Positions 15,410 to 20,551 of a DNA stretch of 20,551 nucleotides are shown in pieces. Location of the stretch: positions 1-20,551 of IMG/VR virus record IMGVR_UViG_3300021142_000233; one strand, given 5' to 3'. Positions within the stretch are counted from its first letter, which is position 1. Each line of letters starts with the position of its first letter. The notes beneath the pieces were generated by a model. That model was given only the letters and a program-made list of their open reading frames with translations, searched no databases and was not told where the DNA came from. A program made the translations under genes and the position numbers. The DNA comes from a virus.

Positions 15410-15441
15410 CGCCGTGAGGCGTGGATTCTAAATTTTTTTTT
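15409..15441 (+). terminator. Small hairpin and T-run directly after the phosphoesterase
   Basis: ACGCC (15409-15413) pairs with GGCGT (15418-15422) around GTGA, overlapping the stop codon. A run of nine T (15433-15441) follows ten bases after the stem, too far for a classic terminator. It may still be an upstream part of the terminator region. Confidence 0.35.
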
Positions 15442-15464
15442 AATTATTTTCGGCGCAAAGACAA

Positions 15465-15504
15465 AACCCCTACTTGCAAGTCAGGTAGGGGTTATTTGCT
15501 TTTA
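15465..15504. terminator. Bidirectional terminator between convergent genes
   Basis: AACCCCTACTTG (15465-15476) pairs with CAGGTAGGGGTT (15482-15493) with one T-G wobble and a 5-nt loop. T-rich sequence follows on the + strand, and AAAA before the stem (15463-15466) gives a T-run on the - strand. It serves the phosphoesterase gene and the minus-strand gene. Confidence 0.8.
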
Positions 15505-15524
15505 GGGGGAGTCGAATAATAGAG

Positions 15525-15707
15525 CTAATTATCTTCTGGGTCAAAATCGGGGTCAAAAATAGGTATTTCAATCGTTTTCATCAATTCTAGGGCTTTGCCA
15601 AAGGCAACAACGGCTCGATTTGTCAAGTCATCTAGGGCATCCGGGAAAGAATCTGTGGACTCTAGTTCTACGCTTACGGCATAGGCGGCAATGCGTATAG
15701 CAATCAT
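15525..15707 (-). CDS. Small minus-strand protein of unknown function
   Basis: 60 residues, the only convincing gene on the opposite strand. The frame ends beside the bidirectional terminator. Its start (ATG at 15707-15705) has an extended -10 (TGCTATTCT) six nucleotides upstream, so the message would begin at or next to the ATG, a leaderless arrangement common in Actinobacteria. The protein is an amphipathic helix (IAAYAVSVELESTDSF, LDDLTNRAVVAFGKALELMKTIEI) with an acidic end (PIFDPDFDPEDN). No domain is recognised. It could be a small regulator or inhibitor. The region would otherwise be a 400-bp gap in a dense genome. Confidence 0.55.
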   Translation of the reverse strand: MIAIRIAAYAVSVELESTDSFPDALDDLTNRAVVAFGKALELMKTIEIPIFDPDFDPEDN

Positions 15708-15713
15708 TCCTCA

Positions 15714-15722
15714 AGAATAGCA
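15714..15722 (-). promoter_or_regulatory. Extended -10 for the minus-strand gene
   Basis: On the minus strand TGCTATTCT ends six bases before ATG 15707, which places +1 at the start codon. A weak -35 (TTTCGG) lies 16 bases upstream. Confidence 0.45.
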
Positions 15723-15744
15723 CCAAGAAACTTGCCCGAAATGC

Positions 15745-15774
15745 TTGATTTTTGTCCTACCCCTGCTTTAAGGT
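15745..15774 (+). promoter_or_regulatory. Candidate promoter for the recombination/replication operon
   Basis: TTGATT (15745-15750) and TAAGGT (15769-15774) are 18 bases apart. TAAGGT fits the TAnnnT form of actinobacterial -10 boxes. The following AGGTGTAACT recurs in inverted orientation in the intergenic region at 19224-19233, so a regulator may bind here. Confidence 0.45.
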
Positions 15775-15815
15775 GTAACTAATGCCAACAAGGGCAGAAC
15801 ATGGAAGGAACGGAC

Positions 15816-18076: not shown

Positions 18077-18366
18077 CAATTTTTAAAGATGCAATTAAAG
18101 CATTTGAATTTGAACATGAATTTAGATGCTCAATAAATAAAAAGAAATGCAAACACTTAGATTTAATTGAGCAAACTTACGATCAAGAAATTATTTTTAA
18201 TCACAGTTTATTGGTCAAAGATAGGATCATAGAACATAGCGTTAATCAACTTGAAAAGACTCGACAAGATTGGCTAGATGTTCAAAATTTACCCAATAAT
18301 TCTTTTGCTAAATGGGTTGATAGTGTATTTGATGTAGCCATTAAAGCCGTGAAGGAGATTGAATGA
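18073..18366 (+). CDS. Small protein of unknown function
   Basis: 97 residues from GTG 18073 (GTGA overlap with the WhiB-like gene), with TAGGAGAG upstream. It is helical and charged, with RCSINKKKCKHLDL near the N-terminus (two Cys and one His, possibly metal binding). A long helix (IIFNHSLLVKDRIIEHSVNQLEKTRQDWLDVQ) follows. No family is recognised. It ends ATGA with the methyltransferase remnant. Confidence 0.65.
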   Translation: MTIFKDAIKAFEFEHEFRCSINKKKCKHLDLIEQTYDQEIIFNHSLLVKDRIIEHSVNQLEKTRQDWLDVQNLPNNSFAKWVDSVFDVAIKAVKEIE

Positions 18367-18494
18367 AGGCGGTCAGTCTATTTGCTGGTGTTGGTGGCTT
18401 TGATTTAGCACTTACTCAAAACGGCGCAGAGGTAGTTCCAGTAGTAAGTTGGTTAGCCAAACGATTGATGGGGGTAGCAAATGACATGGATTAA
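18363..18494 (+). pseudogene. Internally deleted C5-cytosine DNA methyltransferase remnant
   Basis: 43 residues from ATG 18363, overlapping the previous stop by 4 nt and preceded by AAGGAG (18352-18357). The first half (VSLFAGVGGFDLALTQNGAEV) is motif I of C5-methyltransferases, the SAM-binding loop. The second half (VVPVVSWLAKRLM) resembles motif X and the C-terminal helix of the same enzymes. Everything between is missing, including the catalytic PC motif IV and ENV motif VI, so no enzyme activity is possible. Frame is kept across the junction. Intact enzymes have about 250-400 residues. It could be a real remnant, a new small protein, or a deletion in the assembled sequence. The following gene starts 14 nt before its stop. 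Confidence 0.7.
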
Positions 18495-19182
18495 GCTAGA
18501 TGACGGATTTCCACAAAACCCTAAAATTGTGGGATTGAGCGACAGGGCTTTTAGAGATTACATTTCAGGATTGTGTTATTCCGGGATGTACCTAACTGAC
18601 GGATTTATTCCAAAAGCAATAATTTCTAAGGTAAAAGGCACAAAAGAATTGATAAATTCTGGACTTTGGGAGCAACTTTCTGACGGAATTTTGATAATAA
18701 ATTACACCGAATATCAGAGCCAAAAGTCCGAAGTTGAGCGTAAAAAGGAACTTAATCGTGATCGTGTAATGCGTTACAGGGAAAAAAGTAATGCGTTGGT
18801 AATGCATCCAGAGAACAGAGAACAGAGAACAGAGATAAATACTGCAACGCCTAACGGCGTTCAGGGATTAGTTGCTTTGTATTTTGACAATTTCAAAGGC
18901 GAGATCAAGCCATCGGGGGCGCAACTTGCCGGACACATTCAGCTTCTTTTGAAGCAAGTCAGCATTGAACGCCTAACCGAACTTGTTCCACTTGTTGCCC
19001 TTGAAGGCAAGCCATTAACGGTGAATACGGTGGCTTACTACACAAACCGCGAAAAGCCAGCCACGCCTACCCCCACACCACCCCGTTATTCGGCTTCAGA
19101 TGCCCCTGTGGGCGTTCCAATCCCTGCCGAGGTCAAATCCCTACGAGATCGCCTTAAATACGGCTCAGAAGCGATTCTATGA
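18481..19182 (+). CDS. Replication initiator-like protein with N-terminal winged-helix domain
   Basis: 233 residues. Residues 1-80 (WIKLDDGFPQNPKIVGLSDRAFRDYISGLCYSGMYLTDGFIPKAII) have the pattern of phage replication-initiation winged-helix domains, which bind an origin. A charged helix (81-105) and a short linker follow. The C-terminal part (125-195) is helical (LVALYFDNFKGEIKPSGAQLAGHIQLLLKQ), as in proteins that recruit a helicase. The Pro/Thr tail and a basic end (SLRDRLKYGS) close it. The linker DNA carries the repeats described separately, as in lambda O, where the origin is inside the gene. Whether it is O-, DnaT- or DnaD-like is not settled. Confidence 0.65.
   Translation: MTWIKLDDGFPQNPKIVGLSDRAFRDYISGLCYSGMYLTDGFIPKAIISKVKGTKELINSGLWEQLSDGILIINYTEYQSQKSEVERKKELNRDRVMRYREKSNALVMHPENREQRTEINTATPNGVQGLVALYFDNFKGEIKPSGAQLAGHIQLLLKQVSIERLTELVPLVALEGKPLTVNTVAYYTNREKPATPTPTPPRYSASDAPVGVPIPAEVKSLRDRLKYGSEAIL
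18766..18860. repeat. Phased direct repeats in the linker of the replication gene (candidate origin)
   Basis: GTAATGCGTT occurs at 18766-18775 and 18788-18797, and GTAATGCAT at 18799-18807; the spacings are 22 and 11 bases, close to whole turns of DNA. Then AGAGAAC is repeated three times in tandem (18810-18830), with a partial copy and an A/T-rich run, and a small inverted repeat (18847-18851 with 18856-18860). An origin is inferred. Confidence 0.45.
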
Positions 19183-19216
19183 CTTGCGCTCGTAAGTAAT
19201 TTATGTCATTCTTATC

Positions 19217-19233
19217 CTGTAAGAGTTACACCT
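19217..19233 (+). promoter_or_regulatory. Candidate promoter/operator region upstream of the small gene at 19252
   Basis: The 69-bp gap (19183-19251) has CTGTAAGAG (19217-19225), similar to CTGTAAGGG at 19883-19891 and CTTTAAGG at 15766-15773. AGTTACACCT (19224-19233) is the inverted form of AGGTGTAACT at 15771-15780. A phage-specific promoter or operator is possible. Confidence 0.3.
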
Positions 19234-19251
19234 ACACGATCAGGGGGTCGT

Positions 19252-19443
19252 ATGAAAACTCTGCACATCTGTAAAGCTCGGCAACTTCAAGTTGGCGATG
19301 TCCTAGTTCGCGGTGAAAATCGTTGGGATATTATTCAAATCGAAGAAGAGCAATATGGGCTAGAAATTCGTATGAGAAATTATCTTAACGAGGGCAAAGT
19401 TAAATTTATGCTCCCAGATGAGATCGTCACTATCGAATTGTGA
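19252..19443 (+). CDS. Small beta-rich protein of unknown function
   Basis: 63 residues, with CAGGGGG before ATG 19252. It has a beta-strand pattern (QLQVGDVLVRGENRWDIIQIEEEQYGLEIRMRNYLNEGKVKFMLPDEIVTIEL) like small SH3-type barrels common in actinophage early regions. No family is recognised. It is coupled to the RusA gene by GTGA. Confidence 0.65.
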   Translation: MKTLHICKARQLQVGDVLVRGENRWDIIQIEEEQYGLEIRMRNYLNEGKVKFMLPDEIVTIEL

Positions 19444-19826
19444 TTTCATTCGGAGTGGAAGGCACTCCAATCCAGCAAGGAAGCATGAAGTTTATCCGAC
19501 CCGGCGTAATGATTCATTCTCGCGCAGTTGAGTTAGCCACATGGCGAGCTGACATTGCTTTAGCCGCCAAAGTTGCAGGATGCAAGCCCATTGATAGCCC
19601 TATTATTATCACTATGAGATTTCGCGTTAAAAAACCCAAAACCGTAAAACGCGACTACCCAACCGTTGCGCCCGATTTGGACAAATATATTCGGGCCGTA
19701 AACGATGGACTCACCGGGGTTGCTTTCAACGATGACTCACAAGTAATACACATAACTGCATCAAAAGTCTATTCGGACAATCCGGGCGTAGATATCGAAG
19801 TTTCAGACGAGTTTGACTGCCTATAA
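19440..19826 (+). CDS. rusA: RusA-like Holliday junction resolvase
   Basis: 128 residues from GTG 19440 (GTGA overlap). The catalytic part is clear: APDLDKYIRAVNDGL (D79, D81, K82, D89), then GVAFNDDSQV (D98, D99), as in the RusA family, where the acidic residues bind two metals. The length is typical of RusA (about 120). It cleaves four-way junctions made by recombination or replication and would complete the set of annealing protein and nuclease upstream. Confidence 0.85.
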   Translation: MISFGVEGTPIQQGSMKFIRPGVMIHSRAVELATWRADIALAAKVAGCKPIDSPIIITMRFRVKKPKTVKRDYPTVAPDLDKYIRAVNDGLTGVAFNDDSQVIHITASKVYSDNPGVDIEVSDEFDCL

Positions 19827-19827
19827 A

Positions 19828-19843
19828 TCGAACATTTGTTCGA
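19828..19843. promoter_or_regulatory. LexA-box-like (SOS) operator
   Basis: TCGAACATTTGTTCGA is a perfect palindrome apart from its central TT and equals the actinobacterial LexA consensus TCGAAC-N4-GTTCGA. It lies two bases after the RusA stop, in the 122-bp gap before the next gene. A TATAAA (19822-19827) directly before it could be a -10, which would put the box at the transcription start. Confidence 0.7.
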
Positions 19844-19862
19844 TAAAAAATAAATTAAAAAT

Positions 19863-19891
19863 CTTTGAAATAACCTTGCAATCTGTAAGGG
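19863..19891 (+). promoter_or_regulatory. Candidate promoter in the 19827-19948 gap
   Basis: CTTTGA (19863-19868) and TAAGGG (19886-19891) lie 17 bases apart, in an A/T-rich run after the LexA-type box. The -10 is weak. The rest of the gap is a leader of about 55 bases with AAGGAG (19937-19942) before the ATG. Confidence 0.3.
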
Positions 19892-19948
19892 ATGGGCGTA
19901 AGTTTTGTCTTGTCGGGGAACGAACGGAGAACCGATAAGGAGCTACAA

Positions 19949-20107
19949 ATGTTCTGCACACTATGTAACAACGAAGTTGAAGTTTTGGCTCACACCAACA
20001 ACCGCGAAATCTGCTTGATTTGCGTAGCAGATATTTCTAAGTACGCGATGAACTACGGCAAGTCTTTTGACTCAGTTCTTGCTCGCCGAATTGTTGAGGT
20101 GGCTTAA
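19949..20107 (+). CDS. Small zinc-finger-like protein
   Basis: 52 residues from ATG 19949, chosen for AAGGAG at good spacing; the in-frame upstream ATG (19892) has none. Two CxxC pairs (C3-C6 and C22-C25) make a likely zinc knuckle (FCTLCNN ... ICLICVAD). The rest is a helix. It is directly followed by the next gene. Role unknown; position after a LexA-type box suggests it may be under host SOS control. Confidence 0.7.
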   Translation: MFCTLCNNEVEVLAHTNNREICLICVADISKYAMNYGKSFDSVLARRIVEVA

Positions 20108-20362
20108 ATGGCTACAGTAAAAGATTCAATGGACAATTTGATGTTTTCTCAAAACATAAAAGTCAAAGGCGATCGTTGGCATATTCATAAAGAATTTTGG
20201 AACGAAGAGCCAATTACTTATTGCGATTTAACATTAAATTTTAATTATCACAGAATAATGACCACCAATGATTCTGGTTATCAATGGCAAAATGGCAAAA
20301 AGTGGGAACCTGAAAACATTTGCCCAAAATGTGTAAAGAACTTTGAATTGGTGGTTGCATAA
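20108..20362 (+). CDS. Small protein of unknown function with C-terminal CPKC
   Basis: 84 residues, starting right after the previous stop. The beta-rich body (VKGDRWHIHKEFWNEEPITYCDLTLNFNYHRI) contains a C39, and the end has C72-x2-C75 (ENICPKCVKNF). With the two histidines this may bind a metal. No family is recognised. The ribosome-binding site is weak (GAGGTGG). Confidence 0.65.
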   Translation: MATVKDSMDNLMFSQNIKVKGDRWHIHKEFWNEEPITYCDLTLNFNYHRIMTTNDSGYQWQNGKKWEPENICPKCVKNFELVVA

Positions 20363-20551
20363 ATGGTCACTATCACAATGACAATCACCGCCGAGGATTT
20401 TGACCGCATTGCCGATACCGCGATGCGTTGGGGTAAAGACTGGCTTATCAAGCAACACCGCTTTGAGCCAGTAACAACCAACTTCTCCTACAAGATGGCG
20501 TACTGGGTAGATCGCTACCTTGAAACTCTTGTCTGCCAGCAATACTTGGCA
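20363..20551 (+). CDS. Unknown protein, 3' end outside the window
   Basis: The frame starts at ATG 20363, directly after the previous stop, and is open to the window end (63 codons). The visible part (ITAEDFDRIADTAMRWGKDWLIKQHRF, then TNFSYKMAYWVDRYLETL) is mostly helical with many aromatics and no motif I recognise. Confidence 0.6.
   Translation, partial: MVTITMTITAEDFDRIADTAMRWGKDWLIKQHRFEPVTTNFSYKMAYWVDRYLETLVCQQYLA

Follow-up and report, generated by a model that had tools for sequence, protein, structure and literature searches.

Most known phage LexA sites are those of temperate phages, such as coliphage 186 and N15, in which the LexA-controlled genes tum and antC belong to a temperate phage or prophage and the sites serve prophage induction. 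The locus described here lies in a 20.5-kb virus fragment of 44% G+C (IMG/VR record IMGVR_UViG_3300021142_000233, whose 20,551 nucleotides are referred to below as the window), and is alike in that a phage gene would be under host LexA, but this lineage appears to be virulent, and a slot for variable accessory genes would be the target. In the Bacillus thuringiensis phage GIL01, host LexA acts on the dinBoxes of the promoters P1 and P3 (PMC4551915; PMC6182141), the likeness being that a phage promoter is read by host LexA. GIL01, however, is temperate and uses the helper proteins gp6 and gp7, whereas here there is a single box, neither an integrase nor a LexA-like gene has been found and the phage family is an unrelated one.

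The LexA SOS box consensus of the actinobacterium Streptomyces venezuelae is tCGAAC-N4-GNNCGa (PMC9380542), and the phage box has all of its conserved bases as well as the N4 spacing. Since the sites listed in S. venezuelae extend from -14 to -199, with one at +91 (PMC9380542), a box some 114 bp ahead of a start codon, as in the window, is not unusual by itself. The new part of the finding is rather its position relative to the promoter.

The palindrome and its surroundings

The box, TCGAACATTTGTTCGA (19828-19843, a putative palindromic operator with no strand assigned), is a 16-bp dyad that fits the actinobacterial LexA (SOS) box, TCGAAC-N4-GTTCGA, exactly; the assignment draws on its sequence, its retention in relatives and host boxes that are identical in form. 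A perfect match in an intergenic region had been noticed in a sequence-only reading of this DNA, and a mismatch scan bears this out. It is the sole zero-mismatch box in the 20,551-bp contig, where about 0.0007-0.0011 would be expected by chance, and matches with 2-3 mismatches are no more numerous than chance level. The box starts one base past the stop codon (19824-19826) of a rusA-like Holliday junction resolvase gene (19440-19826, plus strand; PF05866, E=1.6e-16; phrog_140, E=1.9e-29) and is contained in the 122-nt gap between this stop and the likely ATG, at 19949, of a CxxC protein. Contrary to what had been claimed, there is a longer early gap, at 15410-15800.

All the elements that follow are on the plus strand. 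An A+T-rich spacer (19844-19875), whose length varies among relatives in steps of ~11 bp, separates the box from a predicted -35 hexamer, TTGCAA (19876-19881), which is followed at a spacing of 17 bp by a predicted -10 hexamer, TAAGTT (19899-19904). These hexamers are weak and were missed by a stricter consensus promoter scan; their prediction draws on the equivalent position of the -35 in relatives and on a TAnnnT that in those relatives occupies the corresponding site ahead of the leader hairpin. Next comes a 5'-leader stem-loop, tcttgtcgg[GGAACGAACGGAGAA]ccgataagg (19908-19940), with the loop motif AACGR, which is defined by its fold and by comparison with relatives. It was located by a loop-anchored scan, an automatic local-fold scan being too noisy, and an Rfam search of 19000-20551 returned zero matches. 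In relatives (L022, L016, L387 and others) the sequence of the stem differs, its pairing is kept and the AACG(A/G) loop is constant. The stem-loop appears to be a conserved RNA element of the 5' leader.

The first downstream gene (19949-20107) encodes a 52-aa CxxC protein and was delimited by a Shine-Dalgarno sequence (AAGGAG upstream) and by homology with relatives (L056-L058), while a longer ORF at 19892-20107 is without a match to Pfam or PHROG families. The second gene (20108-20362) encodes an 84-aa protein with a CPKC motif, for which relatives were found and which belongs to no known family. Elsewhere, the record contains a WhiB-like gene and a recombination module that comprises nucleases and a single-strand annealing protein. 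A 43-aa ORF at 18363-18494 opens like a C5 DNA methyltransferase (MKAVSLFAGVGGFDLALTQNG) and stops early, and, judged by eye only, it may be a truncated or decayed gene.

Conservation of the box and its promoter

A RusA scan for relatives yielded 54 loci. In related viral contigs, 40 distinct promoter regions have a dyad of the GAAC-N4-GTTC type ahead of this promoter; the palindrome is thus conserved at the same place in related phages, where its absence would have spoken against the initial proposal, and the predicted promoter of the downstream small genes is linked to it. Of the intergenic sequences, 24 distinct ones have a [G/A]AAC-N4-GTT[C/T] dyad -1 to 3 nt from the rusA stop codon. Across these 24 phage sequences AAC-A....GTT is invariant and the flanks are variable, the outer pair 2/15 of the dyad being mismatched in seven of them, and relatives retain the GAAC-N4-GTTC core with few exceptions. 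In rusA relatives at 63% identity or less, the box is absent and the promoter followed by the leader is retained. It is also absent in some close rusA relatives (L425, L427, L428, L430, L431 and L433), and for this reason the box is not essential for the promoter.

Rearranged loci indicate to which neighbour the box belongs. An HNH-type gene is inserted after rusA in L009, where the box lies after this gene and adjoins the promoter, and in L056 an HNH-type gene stands in rusA's place, with box and promoter after it. L010 and L011 have a different region after rusA, and no box. Because it stays with the promoter in L009 and L056 and is lost in L010 and L011, the box is part of the promoter region and belongs to the promoter, not to rusA. 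A function at the 3' end of rusA, considered as a candidate, was rejected on the strength of the same two loci in which the box tracks the promoter.

The first genes after the leader fall by blastp into 18 unrelated clusters among 24, a count in which a few starts, the window's included, were assigned automatically and could be incorrect. The downstream cysteine protein, initially put forward as the target, is not the conserved target, the first gene differing in nearly every phage. Promoter, leader and usually box form a fixed front end, with a variable or hypervariable accessory gene slot behind it. Slot genes end in GTxGCxTAAATG-type junctions (at about 20099-20110 and 20354-20365 in the window; also in L385, L389, L387 and others), with a Shine-Dalgarno-like GGTGG within the gene end and the next start right after the stop. 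Such junctions are nearly confined to the stretch immediately after the box and may represent ready-made cassette borders.

Position and helical phasing

Measured from the predicted -10, the centre of the box is 52-54, 62-65 or 73-76 bp further upstream, in steps of ~11 bp, which places it at about -64, -75 or -87 with respect to the predicted start site (about -75 in the window). It is clear of the core promoter and start site in all 40 regions, being 52-76 bp upstream of the predicted -10 in 39 and 79 bp upstream in one. In a first set of 26 sequences the distances were 52-53, 62-64 or 74-76 bp. Of 14 later promoter regions, for which the leader hairpin served to anchor the -10, 13 belong to the final classes, whose bounds were widened by 1 bp on including these loci, and one (L426) is off phase at 79 bp. 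Where there were several -10 candidates, the choice was made by hand (L008, L386, L424 and L432). Tested against a uniform null, the 11-bp periodicity has a p of about 5e-5 when spacers are collapsed at 80% identity (24 clusters) and of 0.011 at 70% identity (12 clusters), and is not significant at 60% (4 clusters). The window and L028 have most of their spacer in common and their boxes are shifted by 12 bp, about one turn, which argues that the protein bound there has to meet RNA polymerase from one constant side. Steps of ~11 bp thus suggest regulation of a contact type, exerted from one fixed face of the helix.

LexA boxes in the probable host

The phage host is probably a member of the Nanopelagicales, abundant freshwater actinobacteria, as judged from WhiB, G+C content and the freshwater literature. 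Phages of this order have 44.7-44.8% G+C and carry WhiB genes, and cultured Nanopelagicales exist (PMC10202952). A tRNA-based link to the host was also sought, with zero tRNAs found.

Nanopelagicales genomes were fetched by pattern from a published acI probe (PMC3699509), and CGAACNNNNGTTCG is present in 13/13 of them, in only 1-6 copies per genome. A lexA gene was found in 12 of these 13 genomes, and in 11 a box precedes the lexA match by some 70-175 bp when coordinates are compared. In larger samples of the order, CGAACNNNNGTT(C/T)G is upstream of 35 of 39 lexA genes and a lexA match was obtained in 110 of 121 genomes. recA and an operon with a dnaE2-like second gene (gene names by sequence recognition) also carry the box, which there directly follows a -10 of the form TAnnnT. 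Use by the host of the same box form, on which the initial proposal hinged, is therefore seen at lexA, recA and the dnaE2-like operon of what is probably the host order. Because lexA with the same box upstream is widespread in that order, it is very likely that host LexA binds the phage box.

At several host loci (L124, L129, L133, L143 and others), a TTGTCAG-type element precedes the -10 and the LexA box directly after it, at recA and the dnaE2-like operon. We take this element to resemble the RecA-NDp/PafBC motif, and the two transcription units are apparently under dual SOS control. No RecA-NDp-like (PafBC) motif was seen by eye upstream of the phage box in the window.

The geometry of the two kinds of site is different, since the Nanopelagicales recA/dnaE2-like boxes abut the -10, whereas the phage box, which is helically phased, stands before the predicted -35. 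A host-like geometry in the phage, with a -10 directly before the box, was considered and rejected: TATAAA abuts the box in the window, but most relatives have TTTAAT or TTTAG at that place, with no good -35.

In a scan of viral contigs for TCGAACANNTGTTCGA, 37 of 125 sites were intergenic versus 13 of 120 for a TNNA control, among the matches listed. Intergenic TCGAACANNTGTTCGA boxes are found in other, apparently unrelated viral contigs (L158, L160, L176, L181, L253, L165/L198 and L146/L168/L260), some of them in pairs or triples, and that of L253 is just before a WhiB-like gene.

Lifestyle of the phage family

Neither an integrase or serine recombinase (PF00589, PF00239) nor an S24/LexA-like repressor (PF00717) was detected in 21 related records, which are fragments. 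A phage-encoded LexA-like repressor or integrase and, with it, an SOS-inducible temperate phage were set aside as candidates on these grounds, and because of this absence the phage seems to rely on host LexA. Relatives of the large structural protein (790-2448), used as the marker for prophages of this family, were not found in 296 genomes of the host order, in a search without a positive control. The phage family is apparently virulent.

How LexA might act on the phage promoter

The palindrome would best be viewed as an SOS operator of host LexA at the early promoter at ~19876-19904, probably damping it until SOS cleavage, a reading to which we give a probability of about 0.5. Host LexA would bind the palindrome and act from upstream, from one fixed helix face, on the promoter that would drive the slot of small variable accessory genes, and would probably damp it, either through a contact with RNA polymerase or by disturbing the A+T-rich stretch upstream. 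Phage replication and recombination would then produce single-stranded DNA on which RecA is loaded, which would trigger LexA cleavage and lift the damping. Such SOS-lifted damping is favoured because LexA is normally a repressor. SOS control of the promoter appears likely, and as for its sign, repression is favoured, with activation by intact LexA as a live rival. Simple steric repression is not obvious, because the phage box precedes the predicted start by some 64-88 bp and host boxes directly follow the -10, while activation or contact-dependent repression would fit the geometry of the box as well. The proposal that the small cysteine genes are under host SOS control holds up, then, in part: a LexA-type box is present, conserved and linked to the predicted promoter, but its position differs from that of host boxes, and repression of these genes would be one reading among others.

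Possible, if tentative, is the converse scenario in which intact host LexA contacts RNA polymerase at DNA entry and turns the accessory genes on, SOS cleavage turning them off. Steps of ~11 bp upstream of the -35 resemble class I activator sites, which for CRP lie near -61.5 or -72.5; the upstream helical steps are alike, but the protein differs and regulation at the phage box may have either sign. In GIL01 the LexA homologue gp6 activates P3, although gp6 is phage-encoded and its site at -43.5 has a class II position. Precedents for activation by LexA itself, cited in two papers (PMC6182141; PMC9380542), are recA of Rhodobacter sphaeroides and the hydrogenase of Synechocystis, but LexA is nearly always a repressor, with few activator cases known, and repression would also be possible from phased upstream sites. 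A wider and rather doubtful reading is that in virulent actinophages intact host LexA serves, at an immediate-early promoter, as a contact activator that depends on helical phase, the accessory genes firing upon entry and being silenced once infection sets off SOS.

The dyad might instead be the operator of a phage-encoded regulator or of a host factor other than LexA. Symmetric departures from the LexA core (e.g. TCAAACAACTGTTTGA in L031) would be in line with this, and phages often encode their own regulators, here a WhiB-like protein. This is nevertheless unlikely, as the sequence and the A..T preference of the inner dyad agree with host LexA boxes, no S24/LexA-like protein is encoded in the 21 related records and WhiB is not known to recognize a palindrome of this kind. 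Titration, in which replicated phage genomes would soak up LexA and help to induce SOS functions of use to the phage while the box regulates no phage promoter, is quite improbable. The box is perfect and presumably of high affinity, and phage genome copies are many late in infection, but there is about one box per record, and a pure decoy need hold neither its place at one promoter nor a helical phase. With about one site per genome, the titration half of the original suggestion that the phage senses or titrates LexA is weak. Hardly any credence can be given to an RNA hairpin (a terminator or processing site at the rusA 3' end) or to a chance match. The dyad is 0-6 nt past the stop codon of rusA, and in L022 and L025 it is followed by a U-run, but most copies are without a U-run, only four core pairs are always kept (pair 2/15 being mismatched in 7/24) and the box is apart from rusA in L009 and L056. 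The G+C-rich stem with compensatory change and U-run of an intrinsic terminator was thus not seen, and about 0.001 chance matches would be expected per contig.

Concluding remarks

Gene expression in these phages probably listens to the DNA-damage switch of the host. If this is true, lytic phages read the DNA-damage state of the host as a timing signal, and a DNA-damage signal would front a fast-changing gene slot, which would be a natural place for counter-defence genes.
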